A DNA stretch of 64,000 nt from Thalassovita autumnalis. GTDB taxonomy: Bacteria; Pseudomonadota; Alphaproteobacteria; Rhodobacterales; Rhodobacteraceae. Below the pieces are notes generated by a model that made no database searches, was not told the origin of the DNA, and was given only the letters and a program-made list of their open reading frames with translations. Of the stretch, positions 27,342-53,345 are shown one piece after another. A program made the position numbers and the translations under genes. The stretch covers positions 1-64,000 of the forward strand of contig NZ_CYSB01000024.1 in the NCBI RefSeq assembly GCF_001458255.1. Direction: 5' to 3'. Numbering within the stretch: position 1 is the first letter of the stretch; every line of letters starts with the position of its first letter.

Positions 27342-27920
27342 ATGAAAAAACTCACCGTAATTACCGCTTTTGTTTTCACTTCGGCAGCGCTCGCAGCCTA
27401 CGCGCATGGCGGCGCTACTGGAATTGTCAAAGAACGCATGGATGCCATGAGCGCCATGGGAAAAGCCGTTAAAGCGATCACCCCAATGATGCGTGGCGAA
27501 ATCGAATTCAATGCCGCCACGGTTCGTTCGGTAGCAAAAACGATTGGGAATCACGCGGGCGCTGATCTCACAGAGCTTTTCCCAGAAGGCAGCGGCGGTG
27601 CCCCGTCGGAAACCAGGGACGCGGTCTGGACCAACTGGAACGAATTCACTGAATTGGCCGAGCAACTTGAGATCTATGCTGACGGACTGGCGAGAGCAGC
27701 CAACAACGGCATGATGGCAGGCGCCCAAAGTGGCATGTCTTCTGGCGCAATGATGGGCGGCAGTTCGATGATGGGCGGCGGCACCATGATGGGCGGTGGA
27801 ATGATGCAGGGGGCGATGACGGCTGACGACATTGCGGGTATGCCAGTGGATGGTGCCTTCGCAATGGTCAGTCAGGTATGCTCGGCCTGTCATACAAAAT
27901 TCCGTGCTGAGTCAAAATAA
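27342..27920 (+). CDS. Cytochrome c'-type protein with Met-rich insert
   Basis: A 192-residue exported protein (signal KKLTVITAFVFTSAALAAYA) of the class II cytochrome c family. The heme motif CSACH is at the C-terminus (VCSACHTKFRAESK), as in four-helix cytochromes c'. Between helices 3 and 4 is a Gly/Met insert (GGSSMMGGGTMMGGGMMQGAM), about 35 residues long, not part of normal cytochrome c' and resembling Cu-binding Met clusters. One base separates it from the diheme cytochrome gene. Confidence 0.88.
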   Translation: MKKLTVITAFVFTSAALAAYAHGGATGIVKERMDAMSAMGKAVKAITPMMRGEIEFNAATVRSVAKTIGNHAGADLTELFPEGSGGAPSETRDAVWTNWNEFTELAEQLEIYADGLARAANNGMMAGAQSGMSSGAMMGGSSMMGGGTMMGGGMMQGAMTADDIAGMPVDGAFAMVSQVCSACHTKFRAESK

Positions 27921-41114: not shown

Positions 41115-43262
41115 CTAGCGATGACGGTCCCGCCAGGCGTCATATGCGGCCTCGGTGCCACCTTTGCCGTGGCGGTCCCAGACATGTACCCGGGTTTTGG
41201 CCGTTGCGCGGCTGCCCATTGTGGGGGGCTGGCAGGTGATGGCCACGTGATCGCCATCGAAAGAGGCAAACCGGACAGAAGCTGCAGACTGCCCATCCAT
41301 CAGCTTGCGCCTCAGGAAATCCACCGCAATCCGCTCCCCCTGACGCAGAGATTCATAGTGTTCGCTGTATCGCTCAACCCCTGCAAAACACCGCCCGAAG
41401 GAGATGTTGCTGGCCAGCTTGTTCAACTCACCCTGCACGGTGAGGTCTGCGCTGTCCTTGGCTGCGGTCAGTCGGGTGTAATCGTACTCGGGATCTGGTG
41501 TGTAAGGATGGGGCAGCATTGCCCCTTCACCACTGAGCATCCGTTCGTCACTGAAATAGGCCGCAGGATGCAGGGGCTCTGCCCCGGTCAGGATGGGGCG
41601 ACCCCGCTCAGGCGTGCCAGCGGGCAGCTGATACATCTCAAAAAAGGCCTTCAGCACGGTCACACAGGCGCCGGCAACAGTGGCATGGGCAGACCCATGG
41701 CCGGGGTGCATTGGCGACCCTTCCGGGTAGACCTGCGGCAACAGGGCATTGCTGTCCTCATGCAACGGACCCAGATCAACGGTACCGTATTGGGCGCTCC
41801 AGAACCTGTTGTTGGTGCGGTTCAGCTGACATATGGCGCTGAGCAGGCCGCTTTCCGTCAGATCCCGCGACATCCTTGCAAAAAGCGGCTGCTCAGAGCC
41901 AAGGCTTTCCGCAGCGCTGCCACCGGTTTGTGACAGGGCGATGCCGGCGGCCAATGCCTCGGGCCGGGCGGTCAGCGGGGGAGCGAATTTCTGTGATTGC
42001 GCACTGGTCAGGGCCAGATGACCTACCTCGGCGAGCATGCTGAGGATATGGGCGGCCCCAAATGTCGCGGCGCCGTCGCGGGTGGGATGACCGCGCCCTT
42101 CAGGCAGGCCCTGATCGGTGGGCTCCTCCGCACCCAGAAGGATCAGCGCGGCGTTCTGGTAGGCCTGGAACAACGTGTCAAAATGGACATAGGTCGCCAG
42201 ATCACGTGGCGTGGTAATGAACCGGGCGGTGTCGCGGAACCGGTCGTAGGCATCTTTGCGGTTGGATCCGTTTTGCACATCCAGCCAGGTTGCCCATTCC
42301 GTCATATGATCACAGCCATCCAAGTGACCCGCAAACCGCTGCGAGATCATCTGAACCCCGTAACGGATCACGCCGTCATTTGGCTGAATGCAATCCTCCT
42401 GCGTCCTCAGAAGTTTGCGAATGGGGGCAGGGACGTAGCGTGCTGCGCGGCTGAGGGCATCCTGTGACGGTGCGGCACGCGCGGCCTTGGGGCCATCTTC
42501 GGTGTCCAGCGCATCAAGGGCTGCATATTCGCGATTTCCGACCAGCAGAAACTGCGAGATATAGGGACCAACGCGATCCCCGGGGGTGCAGCCGTTGAAC
42601 AGATGTGCAGGATCCAGATCGCCCCGCGCCAGACGGCGTTTGGCGGCCGCGGGGCCTTTGGCATGCTGGAAATAGGGCAGATCCGCCAGCTGTTCGGTCA
42701 AGCGCGCGGTGATCCGGCAGGTGGCCCACCGTTCAAAGGGAATGTCCCGCAACAGCGCGGCGGCATAAAGCTCGCCCATTTCGGCGGTCAGCTCATCCGA
42801 TCCCAGTTCCGGGGACGCCGGCATCTGTGGCGCTGCGGTGGGGCCGGTTGCACCCAGCCCGTCATCGCCCGGCCGTGTCAAAGGTGCTGGGGTGGCAAGT
42901 GGGCTTTCCTGTCGCCTTGCCTCATGGCTGCCACTGGGCCGCAGGAAGCCGCCAGAATAAAGCGGCACATTGAAACCCGCATGGCGGGTGGTCAGCGCAG
43001 TGATCAGTTGTTTCAGATCGCCCGCCCGGACGCGACCGTAGGGATCATGGCCCAGCCCCTTAGTGTAGGTGCCAAAGGCAGCCAGCAATATGTCATCATC
43101 GCTGCTGTGCAGGGAAGTGGCAGCCTTAATCTGGGCGGCGGACCAAGAGCCGTTTGTTTGCCCCCGGCCAGTGTCGACCCCACCAGAGCTGAGCATCAGC
43201 GCTGAATGGGTCCGAGTGGCGGTGGCGGAAGGAGGGGAGGGGTTGGGACGAAAACGAGTCAT
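41115..43262 (-). CDS. Vanadium haloperoxidase-like protein with altered active site
   Basis: A 715-residue protein. Family features: TTPRDLATYVHFDTLFQAYQNAALIL, LLPQVYPEGSPMHPGHGSAHATVAGAC and NKLASNISFGRCFAG. The phosphate-loop Ser and His (GSAHAT) are present. The segment where bacterial haloperoxidases have KW-VHRRLRPE reads NRFWSAQYGTVDLG, and the GVH(W/Y)xSD segment with the vanadate His reads GVERYSEHY, so Lys/Arg ligands and the His appear lost. Halogenation is therefore doubtful. ATG 43262 is chosen because AGGAG is seven bases upstream; the upstream extension would run into the divergent gene. No signal peptide. Confidence 0.8.
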   Translation of the reverse strand: MTRFRPNPSPPSATATRTHSALMLSSGGVDTGRGQTNGSWSAAQIKAATSLHSSDDDILLAAFGTYTKGLGHDPYGRVRAGDLKQLITALTTRHAGFNVPLYSGGFLRPSGSHEARRQESPLATPAPLTRPGDDGLGATGPTAAPQMPASPELGSDELTAEMGELYAAALLRDIPFERWATCRITARLTEQLADLPYFQHAKGPAAAKRRLARGDLDPAHLFNGCTPGDRVGPYISQFLLVGNREYAALDALDTEDGPKAARAAPSQDALSRAARYVPAPIRKLLRTQEDCIQPNDGVIRYGVQMISQRFAGHLDGCDHMTEWATWLDVQNGSNRKDAYDRFRDTARFITTPRDLATYVHFDTLFQAYQNAALILLGAEEPTDQGLPEGRGHPTRDGAATFGAAHILSMLAEVGHLALTSAQSQKFAPPLTARPEALAAGIALSQTGGSAAESLGSEQPLFARMSRDLTESGLLSAICQLNRTNNRFWSAQYGTVDLGPLHEDSNALLPQVYPEGSPMHPGHGSAHATVAGACVTVLKAFFEMYQLPAGTPERGRPILTGAEPLHPAAYFSDERMLSGEGAMLPHPYTPDPEYDYTRLTAAKDSADLTVQGELNKLASNISFGRCFAGVERYSEHYESLRQGERIAVDFLRRKLMDGQSAASVRFASFDGDHVAITCQPPTMGSRATAKTRVHVWDRHGKGGTEAAYDAWRDRHR

Positions 43263-43421
43263 ACTGGATCTCCTGCCGCGGGCTGGAGCGGTCAATGCGC
43301 GGCACACCCATGCTGCAGTATGGCGCGTGAACTCAGCGTGAGTTTTTGCCGTCAAATAATCGGCGACGGCGGGCTTTGGCCTCGTTAAGGTTGTTTCATA
43401 TAGACAATAGGGGAGTTCATT

Positions 43422-44534
43422 ATGCCATTTGCCCAGACACAACAGACGCAACAGACCCAGCAAACCCAACAGACGCAGCAGACCCAGCAAACCCAACAAA
43501 CGCAGAGCGCGCCGGGGCTGGCACATGCCGGGCAGGGCAGTTCACTGGCGCTGAGCCTTGCCTTGGATGCGGTGGCGCTGACCTTGCCGGGCACGCCGGA
43601 CAGCAGCGTCAGTCACAAGGTGCCGCGCGCTTCGGATGAGGTGGCTTGGGGCCGGCTGCAGCCCTTGCATCGTCACATCATGATGACCGAAAAATTGGCC
43701 GAGGGTCTGAGTGTTGAGGTGTCGGGCACCGATAAGGTGGCGGTTAAGCATAACGGAACCCTCCTGTGTGAGCTGACCACCCCGTTCCCTACCGATCCCG
43801 GTGCAAGCGGTGGCAAGGCCAAGGCGAAAGCTGCCTTGCAGCCGGTGCTGGACCGGCGGTGGCTGCGCGGTGAACGTGCGGGTGAGATCGTGACCCAGCA
43901 GACCGACATCCTGTCGTTCCTGGGGCTGGCCTATCCGATGACGCGCTCTAGCCACCCGATGACCATGGCGGTGCTGGATGCGGTTCTGGCCGCGATTGGC
44001 AAGATTGTTGTGCAGGCCAAACATCTGTTGAACACGCCGCGTCCGATCGAACTGACCTCAGCCGCATCGCCGATCATTCGCACCCCCGCCCATGCGGCCT
44101 GCCCCAGCGGGCACGCCAGTGAAGCCTTTGCAATGGCCTTCGCGATGGAGGCGATGATGTTTGGTTGTGCCAGCACGGAATTGCGTCTGATCGCGGCCCG
44201 GATTGAGGAAAATCGGGTGGTTTCCGGGGTTCATTACGAACATGACGGCTGGATGGGCCGCAAGCTGGCGGCTGCCTTGGCCCCGATCTTTGCCGATCGT
44301 TTGGGTCTGACGGCAACCGCCCCAACAGTCACTGAGATTGAAGATCACTGGTCCGCCTCAGGCGAAACCGGGGTTTGGTCGGCGCATGCTGCACATCAGG
44401 CCTCAACCCAAACTGTTGAGTGGCTCAGCGGCGCACCGGCCAAACGTGGCGGCATTAACGTAAACCCACCGGCTGATCGTGCGGATGTTCTGGCCTTCGC
44501 CATGGCAAAAGTCACGCAGGAGCTGGGTGCCTGA
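43422..44534 (+). CDS. PAP2/haloperoxidase-fold phosphatase-like protein with TQQ repeats
   Basis: A 370-residue protein. After an N-terminal Thr-Gln-Gln repeat tract, the catalytic motifs of the PAP2/vanadium haloperoxidase superfamily are complete: KHLLNTPRP (KxxxxxxRP), CPSGHAS (PSGH) and NRVVSGVHYEHD (RxxxxxHxxxD). It could be an acid phosphatase or, with vanadate, a peroxidase. No signal peptide or clear membrane helices are seen, so it is a soluble type. Divergent from the haloperoxidase-like gene (159-bp gap) and coupled to the subtilase (one base between stop and start). Confidence 0.82.
   Translation: MPFAQTQQTQQTQQTQQTQQTQQTQQTQSAPGLAHAGQGSSLALSLALDAVALTLPGTPDSSVSHKVPRASDEVAWGRLQPLHRHIMMTEKLAEGLSVEVSGTDKVAVKHNGTLLCELTTPFPTDPGASGGKAKAKAALQPVLDRRWLRGERAGEIVTQQTDILSFLGLAYPMTRSSHPMTMAVLDAVLAAIGKIVVQAKHLLNTPRPIELTSAASPIIRTPAHAACPSGHASEAFAMAFAMEAMMFGCASTELRLIAARIEENRVVSGVHYEHDGWMGRKLAAALAPIFADRLGLTATAPTVTEIEDHWSASGETGVWSAHAAHQASTQTVEWLSGAPAKRGGINVNPPADRADVLAFAMAKVTQELGA
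43437..43505 (+). repeat. Nine-base tandem repeat encoding (Thr-Gln-Gln)7
   Basis: Seven in-frame nine-base units (ACN CAR CAR) plus a partial eighth, at the N-terminus of the PAP2 protein. Third-base variation shows that the peptide, more than the DNA, has been kept. Copy number could vary between strains. Confidence 0.9.
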
Positions 44535-44535
44535 G

Positions 44536-46299
44536 ATGCTGAGCTTTCATGATATCTCAGATCTGAGTCATGCGCCGGACAACCTGCTGCCCGCAGGTCT
44601 GTCCGCGCTGCTGGCGCCGCCCGGCGCGGCGCGGAGCCGGGTGATCTACCAACAACAGGCGGCTGGGCAAACGGGTGCCTTGGCCGTCGGATCCTTGCCG
44701 GAGCCCTTGCCGACCCTGATGGAACAGGACCGTCTGGGCGCGGCATTGACGGCGATGGGGGCAGATCCCGCGGCGGGTGTCGTGCTGGCGGGGGAGGACG
44801 CAGCGGCCACAGCGGGTGCTTCTTTTGCACCAGCGGTCTGGCCCGCAGCCTGCACCGATATGGTGCCGCCCACCACCGTTGAGGAAATCGGCATCATTGA
44901 TGCTGGCATCGCCTTCTGGAACCCGGCGTTTCAGGACAGCCATGGCGCCAGCCGCTTTGCCTCCTTCGGTGGGCTTACCCTGAAATCGGGTGAGTTGCTG
45001 GCAGGGGAAACCCTTGATCCAGCCGTGCTGACAGCGATGGTGGCCCGGGGGCACACGAGCGCTGGTGACCGTGAAAACCGCCAACAGTTGGCGGCCCTGC
45101 TGCCGTCATCGGTTTATGCCCCGGTGGCCTATGGGCGGCCGCTGTTTCCGCCAAACGAGATGGCACATGGCACGGCGATGACCGAACTGGTGCTGTCCAC
45201 CGCATCTGATACGGCGCGGCTGCATGGGCTGGAACTGCCACAGGATGTGGTGCGTGATCTCAGCGGTGGCATGATGGGCGGTGTGCTGAATGGCGCGGTG
45301 CGGGCGCTGGTGGATCAGGTGGTTGCCTGCCGCAGCGATGGCAATCCCTTCCGAATGGTGCTGTTGCTGGCCTTTGGGTTCCTTGGTGGTCCGCAGGAAG
45401 GCATGGCCGCCCCGCATCAACTGGTTGAACAGTTGAACGCGACCCTTGCCAGCTATCGTAACCTTGGCATTGAGGTACAGCTGGTTGTGCCGATGGGCAA
45501 CCATCTGCAGGATCAGGCGCATGCCACCCTGCCTGCGGACCGAAAACTGGGTTGGCGTATCCAGCCAGACGATCACTCCCTCAACACGTTGGAGGTGATC
45601 CACCCCGGACCTGTGGCCAAGATCAAGTTGATCGCGCCGGATGGCAGTAAGGTGAAGCTTAAGCGCAGCCGGAAGGCCCTGGGCATTCTGAAACATGGCG
45701 GCAAGGCGATTGGTGCAGTGTGGCATCAGGAGGTTGGTGGCGGCTTGCTGCGCACCCGGATCAGCCTGAACCCCAGCGCCACCCGGCAGAGCGGCCTTGC
45801 CGCCGCGCCTTTTGGTCTGTGGCAGATCAAGCTGCCCAAAGGCCCGGAGGCCGAGGTCTGGATCCTGCGCGACGAAATGGGCTTTGATGCCAATCCCGCA
45901 ACCCCATCCCGCCGCAGCTGGCTGGAAGATGGGGCGCGGCCATTGCGTGATCCCAACGGGATGCCATTCCTCGATGACAGCGCGGCACCTGCCGGGGCGC
46001 TGGTTCTGCGGGCGGGCAGCGGATCGCTCCTGGCGGCACATTCCGCGCCGCAGATCACTTCGGTCGGGGCGCAGTGGCAGATGGCAGCAGGTGGCATGGA
46101 ACAGTGCTGGTATTCCGGCAACGCGCTCGATGGCACCGCGCCTGAACGGTGGGAAGATCTGGCGGCAGGCGCTGACCCGGCGCATCGCCCTATCGGGCCC
46201 TTTGGGCGGCGTGCGGTTCTGGGCAATGGTGGCCAGCGGCGCTACCGCGCGGCGGGCACTTCACTTGCGGCGGCCTTGGCGGCGGGTAGCATGGCCTAA
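44536..46299 (+). CDS. Subtilisin-like (S8) serine peptidase
   Basis: A 587-residue subtilase. Asp is in EEIGIIDAGIAFWNPAF, His in NEMAHGTAMTELVL, the oxyanion Asn in VVPMGNHLQDQ and Ser in AAGTSLAAALAAG at the very C-terminus. The order D-H-N-S is normal but the Ser lies at the end, with ~200 residues between Asn and Ser. No signal peptide, so it probably acts inside the cell. ATG 44536 follows the PAP2 stop by one base, with GGAG upstream. Its substrate might be a cluster protein, which is speculative. Confidence 0.82.
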   Translation: MLSFHDISDLSHAPDNLLPAGLSALLAPPGAARSRVIYQQQAAGQTGALAVGSLPEPLPTLMEQDRLGAALTAMGADPAAGVVLAGEDAAATAGASFAPAVWPAACTDMVPPTTVEEIGIIDAGIAFWNPAFQDSHGASRFASFGGLTLKSGELLAGETLDPAVLTAMVARGHTSAGDRENRQQLAALLPSSVYAPVAYGRPLFPPNEMAHGTAMTELVLSTASDTARLHGLELPQDVVRDLSGGMMGGVLNGAVRALVDQVVACRSDGNPFRMVLLLAFGFLGGPQEGMAAPHQLVEQLNATLASYRNLGIEVQLVVPMGNHLQDQAHATLPADRKLGWRIQPDDHSLNTLEVIHPGPVAKIKLIAPDGSKVKLKRSRKALGILKHGGKAIGAVWHQEVGGGLLRTRISLNPSATRQSGLAAAPFGLWQIKLPKGPEAEVWILRDEMGFDANPATPSRRSWLEDGARPLRDPNGMPFLDDSAAPAGALVLRAGSGSLLAAHSAPQITSVGAQWQMAAGGMEQCWYSGNALDGTAPERWEDLAAGADPAHRPIGPFGRRAVLGNGGQRRYRAAGTSLAAALAAGSMA

Positions 46300-46318
46300 G
46301 TATTGAAGTAAAAATGCA

Positions 46319-46348
46319 AAAGGCGTGGGATTCCCCACGCCTTTCGCT
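46319..46348. terminator. Intrinsic terminator between subtilase and SARP-like gene
   Basis: AAAGGCGTGGG and CCCACGCCTTT pair around a 4-nt loop, with T-rich sequence after it on the plus strand. Works for the convergent gene too. Confidence 0.85.
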
Positions 46349-46364
46349 TTCTATCCTTGAAACA

Positions 46365-48038
46365 TCAGACCACCAATTGATCCGCAAAGCCGCTGTTGCG
46401 TAGGGTCAGCATCGGATAGTCCGACTGGCGCAGCTGCGAAAACTCAAACTGCGGCTCATAGCGGCGCAGCAATTGGGCGGCCTGTTCCGCACCGTCGCGA
46501 TCCCCAACCAACAGGCGCAGGGCCACCAGATAGCGCAGGGCCGCACGTTGCGATGGGTTGTTCTGATGCGCCGCCTTTGCGGCAGACAGCGCGGTGTTGA
46601 GGTCGCCTTTGCCAAGGGCGGTCAGGCAGACTTCCATATCCCAGGCAAAGACATGCGGCAGGCCTTCTGCAGCACGGCGTGCTTCGGTCGCGGCGTGGTG
46701 CGCGGCCTCCACATCCCCCTGCAACAACGCCACGCGCGAAGACGCCTGCAGCGCATAGGGATTGCCATCATCGCTGCGCAACGCGGCGCGGGCCAGATGA
46801 TCCGCACGCTCCAAATCTCCGTTCAGATCCAGCGCGATGCGGGCGCCAAGCGCACAGACCAGCGGGTTCGCTGGGCGCAGGGCCAGGGCCTCGGCCGCAA
46901 GGCTTTCGGCCTCCGCAGCGACACCACTGTCATTGGCGGCAAATTCCATCGAGCGGGCCAAACGGGCAAAGGCCCGCCAAGCGAGCGCAACCGCAGCGCC
47001 TTCGCCAGAGCTGAGATTGACCAGCTCGTCCTCTGCTTTGTTGAGTTCAGCGAGGTCAGACACATAAAGGCGTGAGGCCGCGCGCTGCATTGCAATCAAG
47101 GGCGACTGCGCGGTGAGGCGCACTGAGCGAAAGCGCAACAGGATCTGCGAAAGTGCGCGTGAGGCAAAGGCCTGAATATCAGCGCCATCGGCAAGGCGCG
47201 ACACGTCCATCGGGACGCGCAGACGCCCTGACCAGAGGAAACGCCGATCGACATCCGCCAAAGCGCGCAGATGCACGTTCCACCAACCACTATCCACCAC
47301 TGAGGTTAACTCCAGATAGATAACGGCGGCGGCCTGCTGCAGCCGCGCCGGATCCGGTTCGACTGCGGCATAAATCTCATCTGCGCCCTCAGCCTCCAGC
47401 CGGGCGGACAACGTATCAATCAGCATCATCTCAAGGAAATATGCCTCATTACCCGTGCCACGCTCCAAAGGCCGGATCACGATGATTGTATTGCCCTGCG
47501 GGGTGAGCGACGGGCCGAGTTCCAAGGGCGAAGCGCCTGATACCGCCGCCTGTGCGGTTTCGAATTCTGCGGTGTGCTGCCCCTTCGGCGCGTTGCCGGA
47601 CGTTTTGTCAAACGCGGCTTCATCCGCGGCGCGCAGATCCCGCAGCCATTCGTCAAAGGCCGGGTCCGGCGCATCGACCAATTCCAGCAACTCGGCTGTG
47701 CCGGCCAGATCCGGGCGTGTGTCGACCTCAACGGCGTCTTCCAGCCAGATCTCCAACCGGTTGGCCCCGATGACGCCTTTTGCATCCGCCAGTGAATCGC
47801 GCAGGTTGGCCAGCGCCCGGCGCAGGTTGGCGGACGCTTTCTCAGGTGGTTTTTCCGACCATAGCATGGATTGGATCCAGGCACGTGACAGGCGGCGTTC
47901 TGGTGTCGTCGCCAGCAGCGCAAGGATGGCACGTTCTTTACGGTAGGGCGGCGTCAAATCACGCCCGTCCTCTGCCCGCAGGGCAAAGCGACCGCGCACT
48001 GTGATCGTGACGCGAGGCGGCGTGTCTAATGTAGGCAT
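46365..48038 (-). CDS. SARP-type transcriptional regulator with TPR-like region
   Basis: A 557-residue regulator. The N-terminal ~110 residues are a SARP/OmpR-like winged helix (VTITVRGRFALRAEDGRDLTPPYRKERAILALLATTPERRLSR, EKASANLRRALANLRDSL). The rest is helical with TPR-like repeats (AALRSDDGNPYALQASSRVALLQGDVEAAHHAATEARR). No ATPase or receiver domain is visible, so the signal is unknown. ATG 48038 is preferred to 48071 because GAAGGG lies 8-9 bases before it. It is divergent from the trypsin-fold gene and convergent to the subtilase, so it probably controls this cluster. Confidence 0.78.
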   Translation of the reverse strand: MPTLDTPPRVTITVRGRFALRAEDGRDLTPPYRKERAILALLATTPERRLSRAWIQSMLWSEKPPEKASANLRRALANLRDSLADAKGVIGANRLEIWLEDAVEVDTRPDLAGTAELLELVDAPDPAFDEWLRDLRAADEAAFDKTSGNAPKGQHTAEFETAQAAVSGASPLELGPSLTPQGNTIIVIRPLERGTGNEAYFLEMMLIDTLSARLEAEGADEIYAAVEPDPARLQQAAAVIYLELTSVVDSGWWNVHLRALADVDRRFLWSGRLRVPMDVSRLADGADIQAFASRALSQILLRFRSVRLTAQSPLIAMQRAASRLYVSDLAELNKAEDELVNLSSGEGAAVALAWRAFARLARSMEFAANDSGVAAEAESLAAEALALRPANPLVCALGARIALDLNGDLERADHLARAALRSDDGNPYALQASSRVALLQGDVEAAHHAATEARRAAEGLPHVFAWDMEVCLTALGKGDLNTALSAAKAAHQNNPSQRAALRYLVALRLLVGDRDGAEQAAQLLRRYEPQFEFSQLRQSDYPMLTLRNSGFADQLVV

Positions 48039-48417
48039 CAACTTACCCTTCAGCTGGGCCCCAACATTCACCGGTCAGGTGACAGTCCCTTCAGTCGGCC
48101 CGAATTTTCTGCAGCAGAGTGGCGAGGATAGCATAAATTTTAATCTTTGGTTAGAAAAATTGGATCACGTTCAACCCATTGTATATGAACTGAAATTTTA
48201 GCACTTCGGTCAAAATTCAGACGTAAAATCACGCTTTTTCGGTAAACTTCGTGAACAGATCACGCTGGCTTCACGCTGCACTGCGACAAAGGGCTGTACC
48301 GGGCGAAACGGTCGTGAACTATCCCCACCACATACAGCAAATGTATTGGCGTTCACTTGATCGTTTCGCCCTGTGCACGTGACGAGTGTTCTGTGGCTTC
48401 ACAGCGGGTGGTGCGCC

Positions 48418-48507
48418 GCCCGATCTTTTCTGACCCCTCGGACCCGCCCGCGATGGCGACCGGTGACTACGCCCGATCTTTTATCCTCCCAAGGGATCGG
48501 GCGGTTT
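48418..48507 (+). promoter_or_regulatory. Terminator-like leader hairpin with duplicated arm, candidate attenuator
   Basis: GCCCGATC occurs twice (48418-48425 and 48471-48478), each followed by TTTT. A single complement, GATCGGGC, is at 48495-48502 and is followed by GGTTTTT. The second copy makes a terminator hairpin just before the ribosome site of the trypsin-fold gene; the first copy can compete for the same arm. The arrangement fits transcription attenuation, or a terminator that follows a short leader RNA. Confidence 0.5.
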
Positions 48508-48530
48508 TTCGCAAGTCAAAGGACACGACG

Positions 48531-49958
48531 ATGCCGACGCCTGAACCTATCCTTCGTTTCTCTGACACACAGTTGGACGTGGCGCGCGACACCCTTATGC
48601 GATCCTACGGCAAGGCTGCGTTCTTTCGCGGTGCCGACGTTGGATTGCGCGCTGAAGGCAGCACCGGGGCAGGGGAAGTTGTGGCCCGGCTGTTTGTTGA
48701 GACGGGGCAAGCTGGCTGTGATTTTGACCGGGCGGACCTCCCGTCTGAGGTTGCAGGTGTCCCGGTTGAAGTGATCACCGCTGCCCCCGTTTCAGCATGC
48801 GAAACCCGCCGGCCTGAGGTTCCCAGTGGTCAGCCCGTGCCCCAGGTGATGGGGGGCGCGTCGCTGGGTCGGTTGAGCGGGGCCACGGGAACCGCAGGAT
48901 TGCTGGTTGTCGATCGCCAAAGTCGTCAGATCGGGGTGCTGTCATCCTGGCAGGTGTTAGCCGGTGCAACCGGTCGCTTTGGTGACGTGATCCTGCATCC
49001 CGGCCTTGCCGATACCGATATCAGCCGCGCCGATCAGGTGGCGAGCCTGGAGCGATGGACGCGTGGCACAGATGGCGATGCAGCGTTTGCCGCGCTTTTG
49101 CCGGGGCAAAGCTGGTTGCCGCTGCAATTTGGCAGTTTCCAACCGGTCAGCTCTGTGCGGACCGCCCGTCTGGGGGAGCGTGTCTATCGTGCCGGGCGCG
49201 GCACGACCCAGGCGCAGGCGATTGTGGAGGGTGCAGGGATCTACCGCGTCGCCTATGAGGTGGCCCCGGAACAGGTGGAGATGCGCGATGTTCGGGCTGT
49301 GCGGCTCCGCCCGCTTGATCGCGATGCCGCTGCCGGCGCGGGCCACCAAGGTGCGCTTTGGGCTGCGGGGCCAGAGCAGGCGGGCATCGGGGTGCAGTTT
49401 GCCATGGATGACGCCGGCCAAACTGGTGCGGGCGCAGTGGTGCTGGTCAGCCCGATGACGCATGTGCTGGACTGTCTGGACCTTGAGGTGGCGTGCTTTG
49501 AGCCTTGGCTTTCCAGCGCTGCACCACAGGAGGCGTCAATTACTCCCTCGCGTTGGGGCAGTGTGGAGGCCTTCCTGACCGAATATGCCGGCCGGGCGGA
49601 AGCGCCCAGCCCCTGCACGGGACCACAAGCCTTCGCCACGGCTGGGGGCTTTGGTGACCAGTTGCCTGACCTAGCGCAGGAGGATGACATGCAGCAGTTG
49701 CTGCCTATTTGGGTGGAACTGCGTGCCGCCCTTCAGGACCGGGGTTTTGGTGATGGCGCGCTGCGCATTTCGGACCCGATTGAAGCCTTGCAGGTAACGG
49801 CCCAGTGCGGCCATGACGCAGTGGCTGAAACCATCCGTCGCCTGCCCGTCCTACCAATGGTGGAGGGCGATCAGCTAAGGGGCGCCAAGACCTTTGTTGA
49901 GGTCTGTCGACTGCTCCGTGCTCAGACGCCCGCCACGTCAGGGCCTTTCGGGAAATAA
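48531..49958 (+). CDS. Trypsin-fold protein with lost catalytic His and Ser
   Basis: A 475-residue protein. The middle follows the layout of NAL1-like trypsin-fold proteins: GTAGLLVVDRQSRQIGVLSSWQVLA, GDAAFAALLP, VYRAGRGTTQ, GHQGALW, GIGVQF, and SPMTHVLDCLDLEV. In active members the three catalytic places read NNHVLA, DAAIA and GDSGSL. Here His is Gln (SSWQVLA), Asp is kept (GDAAFA) and Ser is Gln (GHQGALW), so it should be an inactive pseudoprotease. ATG 48531 is chosen for AAGGA eight bases upstream. Its stop overlaps a convergent kinase gene by 37 bp. It could bind the subtilase or its substrate. Confidence 0.75.
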   Translation: MPTPEPILRFSDTQLDVARDTLMRSYGKAAFFRGADVGLRAEGSTGAGEVVARLFVETGQAGCDFDRADLPSEVAGVPVEVITAAPVSACETRRPEVPSGQPVPQVMGGASLGRLSGATGTAGLLVVDRQSRQIGVLSSWQVLAGATGRFGDVILHPGLADTDISRADQVASLERWTRGTDGDAAFAALLPGQSWLPLQFGSFQPVSSVRTARLGERVYRAGRGTTQAQAIVEGAGIYRVAYEVAPEQVEMRDVRAVRLRPLDRDAAAGAGHQGALWAAGPEQAGIGVQFAMDDAGQTGAGAVVLVSPMTHVLDCLDLEVACFEPWLSSAAPQEASITPSRWGSVEAFLTEYAGRAEAPSPCTGPQAFATAGGFGDQLPDLAQEDDMQQLLPIWVELRAALQDRGFGDGALRISDPIEALQVTAQCGHDAVAETIRRLPVLPMVEGDQLRGAKTFVEVCRLLRAQTPATSGPFGK

Positions 49959-51316
49959 AGGCTGAACTGTGTGCCAGTCCCACCTTCCATTGAGGTGAGG
50001 GTCAGCTGCATCCCATTGCGCCGGGCCAGTGCCGCGGCGATGGACAGTCCCAATCCGGTGCCGTCTTCTGCTGAGGTCTCCGCACCGCGATAGAACCGTT
50101 CAAACACTTTTTCTTGTGCTTCAACCGGGATGCCGGGGCCGTTGTCTGATACTGTGATCCGCTCCGCAGTCAGGGCCACACGGATGTCAGAACCGCCATA
50201 TTTCACGGCGTTTTCGATGAGGTTGCGCAGGATATCTGCCACATCCTCGGCGCGGCAGATTACCGGGACCGTGTTGTCGGCGGAAAGGGTGATGTGCCGA
50301 CCGCGCGCTTCGGCCAACGGGTAGAGGTCTGCAACGGTGCGGCGCAGCACAACATCCACATCGCAGCGGCTAAGGTCAGGCGCCCCGCCAAGTTGCGGCT
50401 GCTCCGCCCGAGCCTGATCCAACAGGCGGTTGGCCAGGTTTGCGGCCCGGTCCACACCGGTCAGGATGTTCTCAAACCGGCGCTTGCTGTTCGGATCCAA
50501 CTGGGTTGCGTCAATCGCTTGGCACTGTGCTTTGATGGCGGTGAGCGGCGTACGCAGCTCATGCGCGGCATCATCGACAAATTGACGTTCGCGCGACAGG
50601 AAGGCCTCAATGCTTTGAAACAGGTTGTTGAGCGAGGTCAGGATCGGCCGCAGCTCATCCGGGGCTTCGGCATCTTCCAGCGGTTGCAGCTGCGTGGGCG
50701 CGCGTTGGCGCAGATCGCGTGACAGCCGGGTGAGCGGGCGCAGGCCTGAGCGTACCACGACCAAAGGCGCAATGACCGATGCGGCAAAAACAAACCCAAG
50801 CGGCAGGATCGCGGCCAGAGCAATCGCGCCGAGCAGATCATCGGCACTGTTTTCATGCCGGGCGATCAGGATCCCCCGGCCACCGCTGGTCCAGAAATGG
50901 CTGATCTGCCAGCCCGCATCGTCAGTTCCGGCATTGCCTTCAAGCCGCTCCTCTTCGCTAAAGGGGCGGGTGTCCGGGTGGCTGTCAAACAGCACGGTGC
51001 CATTGGCATCCGTCACCCGCAAAAGGTAGCCGTCGCGGTAATGATCCGGGTCCCAATCCAGACTGCGCAGGGCGATGCTCTCATTGTCCACGCGGGCAAG
51101 GGCGGTGGCCATCAGCTGCGCCTGCGCGTCGAAACTGGCGTTTAGTTCCAGCCGGGCGTTGATCACAATCGCAATGCTGGCGGCGATCCAGATCATCAGA
51201 ACCAGCGGCATCAATCGCCATTGGATGCGGGAGCGTATGGAAGTGCGCGGCTGGCTGAACGGGCGGCGCAGCGTTGCCCAGAGGCGGGCAGCCGTTGAGT
51301 TACTGGTCGATGACAT
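49922..51316 (-). CDS. Sensor histidine kinase (QseC/TctE-like)
   Basis: A 464-residue membrane kinase. Two transmembrane helices (about residues 35-53 and 162-185) flank a ~105-residue periplasmic sensor. The H-box is FVDDAAHELRTPLTAIK; N, G1 and G2 boxes are RNLIENAVKYGG, VSDNGPGIP and GTGLGLSIA. It overlaps the response regulator gene by 17 bp. The 3' end overlaps the convergent trypsin-fold gene. The ligand is unknown. Confidence 0.92.
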   Translation of the reverse strand: MSSTSNSTAARLWATLRRPFSQPRTSIRSRIQWRLMPLVLMIWIAASIAIVINARLELNASFDAQAQLMATALARVDNESIALRSLDWDPDHYRDGYLLRVTDANGTVLFDSHPDTRPFSEEERLEGNAGTDDAGWQISHFWTSGGRGILIARHENSADDLLGAIALAAILPLGFVFAASVIAPLVVVRSGLRPLTRLSRDLRQRAPTQLQPLEDAEAPDELRPILTSLNNLFQSIEAFLSRERQFVDDAAHELRTPLTAIKAQCQAIDATQLDPNSKRRFENILTGVDRAANLANRLLDQARAEQPQLGGAPDLSRCDVDVVLRRTVADLYPLAEARGRHITLSADNTVPVICRAEDVADILRNLIENAVKYGGSDIRVALTAERITVSDNGPGIPVEAQEKVFERFYRGAETSAEDGTGLGLSIAAALARRNGMQLTLTSMEGGTGTQFSLYFPKGPDVAGV

Positions 51317-51974
51317 AGCCGATACCCCGAATGGTGCGGATCAGATCTGTGCCGAGGCGGCGGCGGATCTGGGAAATGTAAACCTCTACGGTGTTGCTTT
51401 CAGCCCCGTCGTCCCAGCCATAAAGCACCTGAGCCAGATCGTCTTTGGACACCACACGACCACGCCGTTCCAGCAACACCTGCAACACCTGAAACGCCAG
51501 CGGTGGCAGGTCGATCAATGTGTTGTCTTTGCGCAGTGTGCGCGCGGCGGGGTCCAAGATGATATCGCCAATTTCCAGTGCAGGTACGGCGCGGCCGTTC
51601 GCACGGCGGATCATGGCGCGGGCGCGGGCCATCAGCTCCTGCATGTCGAAGGGTTTCACCATGTAGTCATCCGCCCCCAGATCCAGCCCCTCAATCCGGT
51701 TTTCCACCGCTTCCCGCGCGGTCAGAATAATCACCGGGATCTGTTTGCCTTGTGCGTTATGGCCGCCTTGACCGCGCAGCCAGCGCAATAGGGTGATGCC
51801 GTCCTGACCGGGCAGTCCCAAATCCAGCAGCACCAGATCAAAGGCCGAACTGGCCAATGCCTCCTCGGCGCTCAGCCCGTCGGCCACCCAATCCACGTGG
51901 AAGCCTTCGCGGCGGAGGGTGACCTCAATCGCGTCAGCGATCAGCGCATCGTCTTCGACCAGCAATACACGCAT
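51300..51974 (-). CDS. OmpR-family response regulator (QseB/TctD-like)
   Basis: A 224-residue regulator with receiver residues VEDD, LVLLDLGLPGQDG and YMVKPFDMQE, then a winged helix (RRGRVVSKDDLAQVLYG, NTVEVYISQIRRRLG). Its start codon directly abuts the stop of the upstream VTT-LssY gene, so it belongs to a four-gene minus-strand operon (glycosyltransferase, VTT-LssY, regulator, kinase). Confidence 0.93.
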   Translation of the reverse strand: MRVLLVEDDALIADAIEVTLRREGFHVDWVADGLSAEEALASSAFDLVLLDLGLPGQDGITLLRWLRGQGGHNAQGKQIPVIILTAREAVENRIEGLDLGADDYMVKPFDMQELMARARAMIRRANGRAVPALEIGDIILDPAARTLRKDNTLIDLPPLAFQVLQVLLERRGRVVSKDDLAQVLYGWDDGAESNTVEVYISQIRRRLGTDLIRTIRGIGYVIDQ

Positions 51975-53345
51975 TTAACTTAGCCCCGCTGTTGGCATTG
52001 GTGCCCCGGCACATGTCAGCTGTGCCAAGTCTACGTCAGCTGAGGCTTCGGCCACAATCAACAGCTTACCGTCTGTCTTGTAATCGCGAAATTCTCCAGC
52101 GGGCTGCAGCGGCTCCAGATGTAGATCAGGCGCGATTGGCAGGGCGGCAATCTGTTGGGCCAGCGTGGCGCGGGCGGCATCCACATCGGGGTCAATGTCG
52201 TGCAGCAGCGCAGGGATGTGGCGATAATATTTGATCGCGATCTCTTCATCTCGGCTGATCGCGCCAAGATACAGCGGCTGGCCATCAACCTGTCCGGCCG
52301 GCCACCAGCGGATGTGCAGCCGTTCGCTGAGCGTGCCAGGCATCTGAAAGGCAGATTGCGCGGGCTGACCGTTCAGGTAAAGCTCAGACACCGGGGGCGT
52401 GCCGGCCAGCAGCAGTTCGATGTAGGTCAGGATCCCGATGGAGTCGCGCGAAAAGGTCATGTTTCGCTGCCAGCCCAATTGCTCCATCAGCGCCTCAGGG
52501 GACCGCTCGCCGATCATCGCAATATTCACCGGCTGCGGTAGATGCAACGGGGTCTCCCCCGGGCGCGCCAGCAAGGGCTTCTGGCCAAGCTCGCAAAGCG
52601 ATTTATGGGTGGCAATGGGCTGTGGCTCAGGCTTCGCATGGGCGTTGCTGGCAAAGAAATAGACCATATTGCTGCTGAGGAATAAGGCCCCCGCCGCCAG
52701 TCCGGCCAGACACAGCCGCCGCCCATGCGACCGGTCAGATCGCCAAATGCGCCAGCATAGCAGGGCAAAGGCCATGAGCAGCATCACCGGCACCCAATGC
52801 GGCAGGATCCATAGGGCGATCCACGCCCAAACCGCGCCGAAGACCTGACTATAGGTTGCGCCCAGGGCCCCCAGCAGCAGGAACTGACCGGCCCCAAGTG
52901 TGATGCCCAGCGCCGCCGCCGCCCCAAAACGTAGGCGGGACAGGCCCAGACTGCCGGCCAAAAACGGGGTGATCCAGGCAACCGGGCCCAGAAGGCGTGA
53001 GATCACCACAAACTTGGCGCCATGTGTGCCCAGCATATGCCGTGCCCGCCGCAAGGCGCGCCGGTGTTTTTGCCGCCGCATCACTCGCAGGAGGGCGCGC
53101 GGCCCCAGCCGCTGACCCAGAATGAAGCTGGCCATATCCCCCAGCCAGGCGCTGAGCAGCACCAGCGCGATCAGATCCCATTGACCGGTCGCCGCCCCGA
53201 TCGCCCCCGCCGCGAGGAAGGCAACCTCGCCAAAAACGAAGAAGCCGATGCCGATCTGCGTGTCCAAAAAAGCGATGGTGGCAAGGGCCATATAGGTCCA
53301 GGCGCTGGGCAGCTCAGCGAGGGATAGAGAGAGTGTGTCCCACAT
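51975..53345 (-). CDS. DedA/VTT membrane protein fused to LssY-like C-terminal domain
   Basis: A 456-residue protein. The N-terminal ~210 residues are a DedA-type VTT domain (IGFFVFGEVAFLAAGAIG, LGDMASFILGQRLGP, FVVISRLLGPVAWITPFLAGSLGL). After a membrane helix (LCLAGLAAGALFLSSNMVYFF), ~230 periplasmic residues resemble the LssY C-terminal domain (MEQLGWQRNM, LHIRWWPAGQVDGQPLYLGAISRDEEIAIKY). DedA proteins carry lipid intermediates across the membrane. The fusion suggests lipid or lipopolysaccharide tailoring, in line with the glycosyltransferase gene nine bases upstream. Confidence 0.85.
   Translation of the reverse strand: MWDTLSLSLAELPSAWTYMALATIAFLDTQIGIGFFVFGEVAFLAAGAIGAATGQWDLIALVLLSAWLGDMASFILGQRLGPRALLRVMRRQKHRRALRRARHMLGTHGAKFVVISRLLGPVAWITPFLAGSLGLSRLRFGAAAALGITLGAGQFLLLGALGATYSQVFGAVWAWIALWILPHWVPVMLLMAFALLCWRIWRSDRSHGRRLCLAGLAAGALFLSSNMVYFFASNAHAKPEPQPIATHKSLCELGQKPLLARPGETPLHLPQPVNIAMIGERSPEALMEQLGWQRNMTFSRDSIGILTYIELLLAGTPPVSELYLNGQPAQSAFQMPGTLSERLHIRWWPAGQVDGQPLYLGAISRDEEIAIKYYRHIPALLHDIDPDVDAARATLAQQIAALPIAPDLHLEPLQPAGEFRDYKTDGKLLIVAEASADVDLAQLTCAGAPMPTAGLS

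Follow-up and report, generated by a model that had tools for sequence, protein, structure and literature searches.

A Hypervariable Tandem Peptide Array on a PAP2/Haloperoxidase-Fold Enzyme of Thalassovita autumnalis and Its Possible Recognition by the TPR Half of the Adjacent Regulator

Introduction

SARP regulators carry a BTAD domain after the winged helix, and CadC-type regulators combine a winged helix-turn-helix (wHTH) domain with a TolB-like and TPR sensor. The germination subtilases CspB and CspC and their pseudoproteases are described as active and inactive relatives that work together. MalT in its inactive state is reportedly kept bound by inhibitors, MalY among them (PMC10427625). 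In RRNPP systems, a DNA-binding TPR receptor of 250–500 aa lies adjacent to a variable peptide made as a small secreted propeptide of 10–100 aa (PMC10075063). The present work concerns five adjacent genes at 41115–49958 of a 64,000-nucleotide window from Thalassovita autumnalis, the window being the whole stretch of DNA that was analysed (contig NZ_CYSB01000024.1, positions 1 to 64,000). Among them is a conserved trio: a PAP2/haloperoxidase-fold enzyme with a hypervariable N-terminal array of identical short peptides, a subtilase, and a regulator whose C-terminal TPR half tracks the array unit in two clades of relatives. A first-pass annotation had placed the five open reading frames (ORFs) correctly and read them as a candidate system; three of the genes do form a conserved module, while the other two are accessory. 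The array at 43434–43505 was absent from that annotation, which pointed at a widespread module for the wrong reason. The core features are as follows.

43422..44534, + strand: PAP2/haloperoxidase-fold enzyme with an N-terminal peptide array, soluble fold, motifs kept (Pfam, profile, alignment, model and Foldseek)
43434..43505, + strand: tandem array of 8 perfect QTQ copies, 9-bp unit, 6 of the 8 DNA units distinct, modelled as disordered
44536..46299, + strand: Csp-like S8 subtilase with intact catalytic residues, starting 1 base past the enzyme stop codon
46365..48038, − strand: winged-helix/TolB-like/TPR regulator, whose ORF may start at 48071
46368..46745, − strand: C-terminal TPR half of the regulator (residues 431–556), covarying with the array unit in relatives

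Occurrence and Variety of the Tandem Array

Relatives were taken from 80 named loci, mostly in Rhodobacterales, Hyphomicrobiales and Burkholderiales (at least 546 confirmed relatives), and from 120 further stretches, and deduplication gave 210 distinct enzymes. When an array is defined as at least three perfect copies of a unit of 2–6 residues, 204 of the 210 enzymes carry one, with 111 different units, whereas only 6 of the 210 proteins do so after their residues are shuffled. The period is 3 in 169 enzymes and 4 in 28, with a full range of 2–6; the median copy number is 7.8 (range 3–20.5), and the first residue of the array lies at median position 8. In the first alignment, a perfect tripeptide array was seen in 20 of 21 enzymes and a four-residue unit in the remaining one (L048), the units being mostly different. 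The six enzymes without an array are L077, L079, L117, L150, L171 and L208. The stored record of L079 has N across the array region at the enzyme N-terminus; in L171 (2135–3127) and L208 the array is missing or short and the subtilase is split, and because both defects occur together, these two look like decaying copies in which the module decays as a whole. In the window and 20 further loci, a search for other array-bearing genes nearby (at least 4 copies of a 3-residue unit) brought up nothing beyond the enzyme array and its antisense readings.

The unit can be swapped while the remaining enzyme stays 92–96% identical in pairwise alignment, as in the pairs SGGI/SGGL and SAGV/SGGY. All 18 genomes with at least two arrays, read by hand, hold differing units, which chance alone would also lead one to expect given the number of units. 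At one locus (L073, the same as L156; 8025–18921), two complete trios lie close together, with the units GS and SAY.

Codon Usage within the Array

In 193 arrays of at least four copies, codon differences from the array consensus comprise 2333 synonymous and 40 nonsynonymous ones, giving a ratio of nonsynonymous to synonymous change (pN/pS) of 0.006 that is biased downwards by the detection of arrays through a perfect core; a residue change occurs in 40 of the 1681 units, copies off by one residue being counted. Because synonymous differences are so numerous, the data show that most copies are not fresh duplicates. Compared with within-array shuffles, adjacent copies use the same codon less often (1267 of 4385, against 1637.5 ± 26.3, with 0 of 300 shuffles as low), while between copies two apart the codon agrees more often than after shuffling (1588 of 3769; shuffles 1410.9 ± 24.8). 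This alternation is seen alike in the first array set and in 108 later arrays. The first codon and hypervariability counts left out the duplicates L065 and L069, the array-less L077 and L117, and L079, whose array reads N; the identical pair L043/L090 stayed in. We read the codon alternation between neighbouring copies as the removal of slippage-prone DNA repeats.

These counts bear on the alternative that the array is a neutral coding microsatellite and that its covariation with the regulator, described below, reflects linkage or phylogeny. Whole-unit changes among near-identical Phaeobacter strains are what a microsatellite would give: ten plasmid copies, whose enzyme 3′ parts are 95–99.9% identical to that of L261, all have NSF as their unit, repeated 5, 6 or 7 times. 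The near-constant presence of the array, the low pN/pS and the avoidance of equal adjacent codons speak against it.

Covariation of the Array Unit with the Regulator

The Hydrogenophaga-like clade comprises 14 loci and 91 pairs, 8 of them with the same unit, and has the regulator, enzyme and subtilase on one strand (L089, with an incomplete regulator, was left out). Here the last 128 residues of the regulator follow the unit with a partial r of 0.69 when the enzyme and subtilase are controlled (0 of 2000 permutations as high) and of 0.75 when the rest of the regulator is controlled (0 of 2000). The other parts do not follow it, since permutations gave values as high in 449 of 2000 cases for the wHTH-plus-helix part, 510 for the TolB-like domain, 1273 for the first TPR and 1587 for the enzyme. 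One TPR position of the alignment holds W in regulators whose units are of the I, L, M or T kind; where the unit is of the A or V kind the residue there is L, and where it is of the Y kind it is Y. Because the 3′ end of the regulator gene adjoins the array in this clade, linkage could mislead, and this arrangement, like the weakness of the covariation in the whole set, counts in favour of the microsatellite.

The Paracoccus clade is represented by 41 loci with 12 units, and 106 of its 820 pairs share the unit. Here the regulator gene runs divergently, which brings the DNA-binding domain up to the array; 5 of 46 loci of the genus were left out, namely L187 (cut), L198 and L205 (other type), and L208 and L224 (split). 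The wHTH columns 0–120 show no such dependence on the unit (r 0.08, −0.03 and −0.12), and the TPR columns 360–440 track it most (r 0.44 and 0.41, 0 of 200 permutations). In disjoint nearest pairs, TPR identity minus wHTH identity is +0.07 with the same unit (positive in 10 of 10) versus −0.09 with different units (10 pairs; p 0.002), the same-unit pairs also being closer overall. With the array-adjacent domain not covarying and the distant TPR part doing so, the divergent Paracoccus loci argue against linkage as the cause, with phylogeny not fully removed. A neutral microsatellite is considered very unlikely.

Several results weigh against recognition of the unit by the TPR half specifically. 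The subtilase of the Hydrogenophaga-like clade leans to the unit (75 of 2000 permutations as high); with graded unit similarity the figure is 24 of 2000, and its stretch 260–390 gives r 0.48 (21 of 2000). In Paracoccus, the TolB-like domain covaries as well, at intermediate strength (r 0.20–0.33, 0 of 200), as do the first 60 enzyme columns past the array (r 0.14, 0 of 200), the first 80 columns of the subtilase (r 0.19, 0 of 200) and the subtilase as a whole (0.10, 2 of 500); single wHTH columns rank high in the column ranking. The nearest neighbour shares the unit in 29 of 36 cases by the TPR, 27 by the TolB-like domain, 25 by the wHTH, 24 by the enzyme and 23 by the subtilase, so that the TPR edge is small. 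Over all 89 loci the covariation is weak, with r 0.05 for TPRb (23 of 300 permutations as high), 0.09 for TPRa (0 of 300) and 0.08 for the subtilase (5 of 300), while the catalytic part of the enzyme itself reaches 0.19 (0 of 300). A matched comparison lifts the wHTH too (21 of 29 pairs, +0.06), beside TPRb (21 of 27, +0.09); L043, L065 and L069 were left out of the whole-set and matched comparisons. The permutation tests leave phylogeny in place, and a period varying from 2 to 6 is odd for a single binding groove.

Conservation and Distribution of the Trio

Within 4.5 kb, the regulator is found near 204 of the 210 distinct enzymes, the subtilase near 200, and both near 195. In loci with at least 6 kb on both sides, the regulator and the subtilase are each present in 71 of 71, and with at least 4 kb in 103 and 104 of 104, respectively. 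As regards the six enzymes without a regulator, the contig or region ends on the possible side in L041, L063, L077, L174 and L187, while L062 has none on a 12-kb contig. Ten enzymes have no subtilase nearby: L125 and L162 are cut, and L049 and L172–L178 are not cut downstream of the enzyme. L172, L173, L175 and L177 hold the regulator and the tagged enzyme, with no recognisable subtilase in the 2.4–2.7 kb downstream of the enzyme. L172–L178 form a more distant subfamily with a tagged enzyme and, where the stretch reaches, a weakly scoring regulator; in L178, another subtilase was seen by eye downstream of the enzyme. Among 149 genomes of the family that were searched, the subtilase occurred in 8, and the tagged enzyme adjoins it in 8 of 8. 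The co-occurrence expected in the first-pass annotation therefore holds for the enzyme, regulator and subtilase and fails for the two remaining genes, whose counts are given below, and the five-gene module was rejected as a unit.

The family is patchy. At about one genome per genus it was found in 122 of 394 genomes (E ≤ 1e-20, the more distant subfamily included), and at E ≤ 1e-60 in 5 of 84 genomes of Roseovarius (the genus of L131), 28 of 195 of Bradyrhizobium (L085) and 54 of 125 of Paracoccus (L134). The enzyme has a match in 34 of 72,556 plasmid records. All ten Phaeobacter regions contain the trio, annotated as a winged-helix protein, a PAP2 phosphatase and an S8 peptidase, and in one Paracoccus region the gene at the regulator position is annotated as a hypothetical protein. 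The plasmid copy of Paracoccus zhejiangensis (L260, 376–3123) lies near tssH, a type VI secretion ATPase gene.

Patchiness and plasmid carriage, together with a vanadium bromoperoxidase (V-BPO) relative or an animal-type haem peroxidase near some loci, would suit a defence or stress module, in which the regulator fires on a disturbed tagged enzyme or protease and (halo)peroxidases make oxidants that harm the invader or the cell. On the other side, PADLOC gave no family for the five proteins; among 232 of 238 selected neighbour proteins (two scans, Burkholderiales loci left out) its matches are scattered, with no family occurring more than twice per scan; and the enzyme and regulator have no match in 50,697 phage records. 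The defence role raised in the first-pass annotation is accordingly regarded as distinctly unlikely. No known defence system was found in these PADLOC scans, and a phage origin was rejected on the phage-record result together with the absence of any PHROG family for the three core proteins.

Structure and Conserved Residues of the Core Proteins

The enzyme gives a borderline PAP2 match in Pfam (E 5.1e-6), its score of 26.7 bits lying just under the cut-off, 27.2. Its PAP2/haloperoxidase motifs K200, R207, P208, P228, S229, H231, R265, G269 and H271 are invariant in 62 sequences, which bears out the first-pass statement that they are kept. A profile of 21 sequences matches the acid phosphatase 7f17 (E 8.4e-22) and also LpxE and vanadium bromoperoxidases. 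The AlphaFold2 model, built from the 62 sequences, has a mean predicted local distance difference test score (pLDDT) of 82 and a mainly helical core, and its N-terminus is disordered (residues 1–34, pLDDT < 50). In Foldseek, acid phosphatases are nearest to the model (7f17, E 8.4e-5, template modelling (TM) score 0.39 of the query), and the vanadium iodoperoxidase 4cit stands at rank 30, below them. Phosphatase and haloperoxidase chemistry are not distinguishable from the predicted fold and motifs.

Specialised metabolism had also been suggested for the locus, and the array could in principle be the repeated core of a self-modifying peptide natural product, tailored by the fused haloperoxidase-fold enzyme and excised by the subtilase. 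Its core-like hypervariability, the attached enzyme and the protease would agree with this. Many units, however, have no readily oxidised residue (GGA, QG, GS, NTS), acid phosphatases stand above haloperoxidases in the Foldseek ranking, and nothing in this reading requires the TPR half of a regulator to track the core, as it does; such a product is considered most improbable.

The regulator is 557 aa long and has a DNA-binding domain and TPRs; its Trans_reg_C and TPR-type Pfam matches are both under the family cut-offs. The first-pass annotation had called it SARP-type; BTAD is not among the five Pfam families listed for it up to E 10, and the SARP identity was rejected on this ground. The model (pLDDT 90) shows a winged helix and an alpha/beta domain, with helical repeats at the C-terminus, and it resembles consensus TPR proteins and superhelices as well as the CadC sensor (3ly9, E 6.9e-6), with low TM-scores.

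In the subtilase, D122, H211, N322 and S576, which we take to have catalytic roles, are invariant in 47 sequences, and the Asp-His-Ser triad D122/H211/S576 is intact, in agreement with the earlier reading of an intact serine protease. The best profile match in PDB is 9sj6 (E 1e-14), followed by CspB 4i0w (E 1.9e-10), so that clostridial germination proteases are nearest; the hosts found for the trio are presumably not spore-formers. Pfam gives no family for the subtilase, the large protein 41115 or the trypsin-like protein.

Proposed Mechanism

The disordered array may be a docking tag of hypervariable sequence, read by the TPR half, with which the enzyme controls the regulator next to it, a reading that in our view stands evenly between right and wrong. 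The identical short peptides at the disordered N-terminus would serve as an address tag, and the covariation suggests that the C-terminal TPR half binds the cognate tag. The enzyme would hold and signal to a private transcription factor in a trigger-enzyme arrangement, the direction of control being putative, and the subtilase would most likely end or reset the complex through cleavage of one of the two partners, enzyme or regulator. The accessory genes for peroxidases and trypsin-fold proteins would be optional outputs. The tag and the TPR groove would drift together and several copies per cell would thereby stay insulated, which may be the reason for the diversity. A protease-controlled module, as the first-pass annotation had supposed, is possible.

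Alternatively, the array might be a multi-copy peptide-pheromone propeptide that the subtilase cuts, the TPR regulator sensing the peptides in RRNPP-like fashion. The hypervariable identical copies, the helix-turn-helix and TPR receptor next door, the protease near 200 of the 210 enzymes, the receptor covariation and the lean of the subtilase to the unit are in keeping with this, as is the intragenic duplication that RRNPP propeptides reportedly undergo (PMC10075063). However, no Sec signal is apparent by eye, the array lies inside a 370-aa enzyme, and units such as GS or QG would be poor signals. Because L172, L173, L175 and L177 have no recognisable subtilase within reach, and because the unit is tracked more closely by the TPR half than by the subtilase, direct docking is favoured over peptide release, and a pheromone is considered unlikely. 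Judged from the sequence comparisons, physical docking of the enzyme on the regulator is probable.

More generally, perfect tandem arrays of near-arbitrary unit may act as private address labels, each TPR reader recognising the label of its own enzyme, with label and reader being rewired jointly within short spans of evolution and synonymous codons alternated for DNA stability; this wider statement is put forward tentatively, as slightly short of an even chance. If true, it would amount to an evolvable repeat code for specific protein–protein recognition. A tag carried by nearly the whole family, hypervariable from lineage to lineage, uniform inside each protein and masked in the DNA would, together with a matching reader, provide natural orthogonal key–lock pairs (111 units) and a direct test of the evolutionary re-aiming of a peptide-binding TPR domain. 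It would also point to a function for a widespread unexplained gene trio and offer parts for synthetic regulation.

Accessory Genes and Neighbourhood

The remaining features of the five-gene stretch are listed here.

41115..43262, − strand: accessory large relative of the Corallina-type V-BPO with the vanadate-ligating His replaced by Glu, present at 15 of the 104 related loci that have at least 4 kb on both sides
46316..46347, strand ".": terminator-like hairpin on both strands, separating the convergent subtilase and regulator genes
48531..49958, + strand: accessory trypsin-fold (NAL1-like) protein with the catalytic His and Ser lost, present at 5 of those 104 loci

Counts over all 210 (12 V-BPO relatives within 4.5 kb, 5 trypsin-like genes) are a lower bound, 80 stretches reaching only about 2.8 kb. 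Protein 41115, which likely starts at 43262 rather than 43526, matches the Corallina V-BPO 1qhb (E 4.6e-69). It had been described as having lost all its motifs. In fact K, RP and R are still there, as are the His residues of HPS and SGH, SGH reading SAH, but AGVH reads AGVE (AGVHYFSD as AGVERYSE). The His of AGVH is, we assume, the vanadate-ligating residue, and to judge from the alignment it is gone. Among nine aligned large V-BPO relatives, read by eye, six are without part of the motif set, and L051, L058 and L064 keep the three motif blocks. The trypsin-like protein has QV in place of the HV motif and GHQG in place of GDSG, both motifs being kept in the relatives L066 and L072; by these motifs it is dead as a protease, as had been proposed. 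Although degenerate accessory enzymes do recur, the pairing of intact and degenerate enzymes is not an organising principle of the locus, since two of the five genes are optional.

Conserved neighbours such as RTX proteins and transporters were judged ordinary. The one recurring class is the animal-type haem peroxidase (PF03098), which forms a cluster near 11 loci, two of them holding the same gene, and accounts by Pfam for 4 of 112 neighbour proteins in one scan and for 5 of 120 in another. Haloperoxidase-type company of the trio is recurrent but optional. Most of the 11 loci keep a FIDHD-like motif, which presumably has a role in animal-type haem peroxidases; by eye, the haem peroxidase next to the trio in L042 (2131–3399) seems to have none.

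In the window, a FabV gene (38996, Pfam) and an exporter-like gene (40398), which we take to be LysE, lie ahead of the five-gene stretch. It is followed by a two-component pair at 49922–51974 (kinase by Pfam, regulator by eye), and a VTT-domain protein with an LssY C-terminus (51975–53345, Pfam) adjoins that pair. An 18-bp tandem repeat of 2.6 copies at 27750–27796 is unrelated to the module.

Comparison with Known Systems

The open-access literature gave no description of the gene set or the array, and a product-name query returned only unrelated matter. As far as that literature shows, the trio with its codon-alternated hypervariable array and unit–TPR covariation would represent a type of recognition system not described before. 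Class A acid phosphatases and vanadium haloperoxidases have the same fold and active-site motifs as enzyme 43422 and are without its extra N-terminal array region. SARP regulators share the winged-helix N-terminus and the TPR C-terminus with the regulator, in which BTAD was not found by Pfam. The regulator model matches the periplasmic domain of CadC (3ly9), whereas no transmembrane helix is evident by eye in the regulator; to our knowledge, CadC has no tagged partner enzyme. Unlike the pseudoproteases of the CspB/CspC type, the inactive partners at this locus have other folds and are optional.

The module resembles RRNPP systems in that a regulator with a DNA-binding domain and TPRs adjoins a variable peptide. 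It differs in having no small secreted propeptide (secretion judged by eye), the peptide being a perfect array on a 370-aa enzyme; the regulator, at 557 aa, also exceeds the RRNPP size range, and the module belongs to Pseudomonadota, not Bacillota. MalT is a STAND protein, in contrast to the wHTH/TolB-like/TPR regulator here, and the accessible part of the MalT/MalY source mentions no hypervariable repeated tag; in the trigger-enzyme control of MalT by MalY, an enzyme likewise holds a transcription activator, as is proposed for this module.

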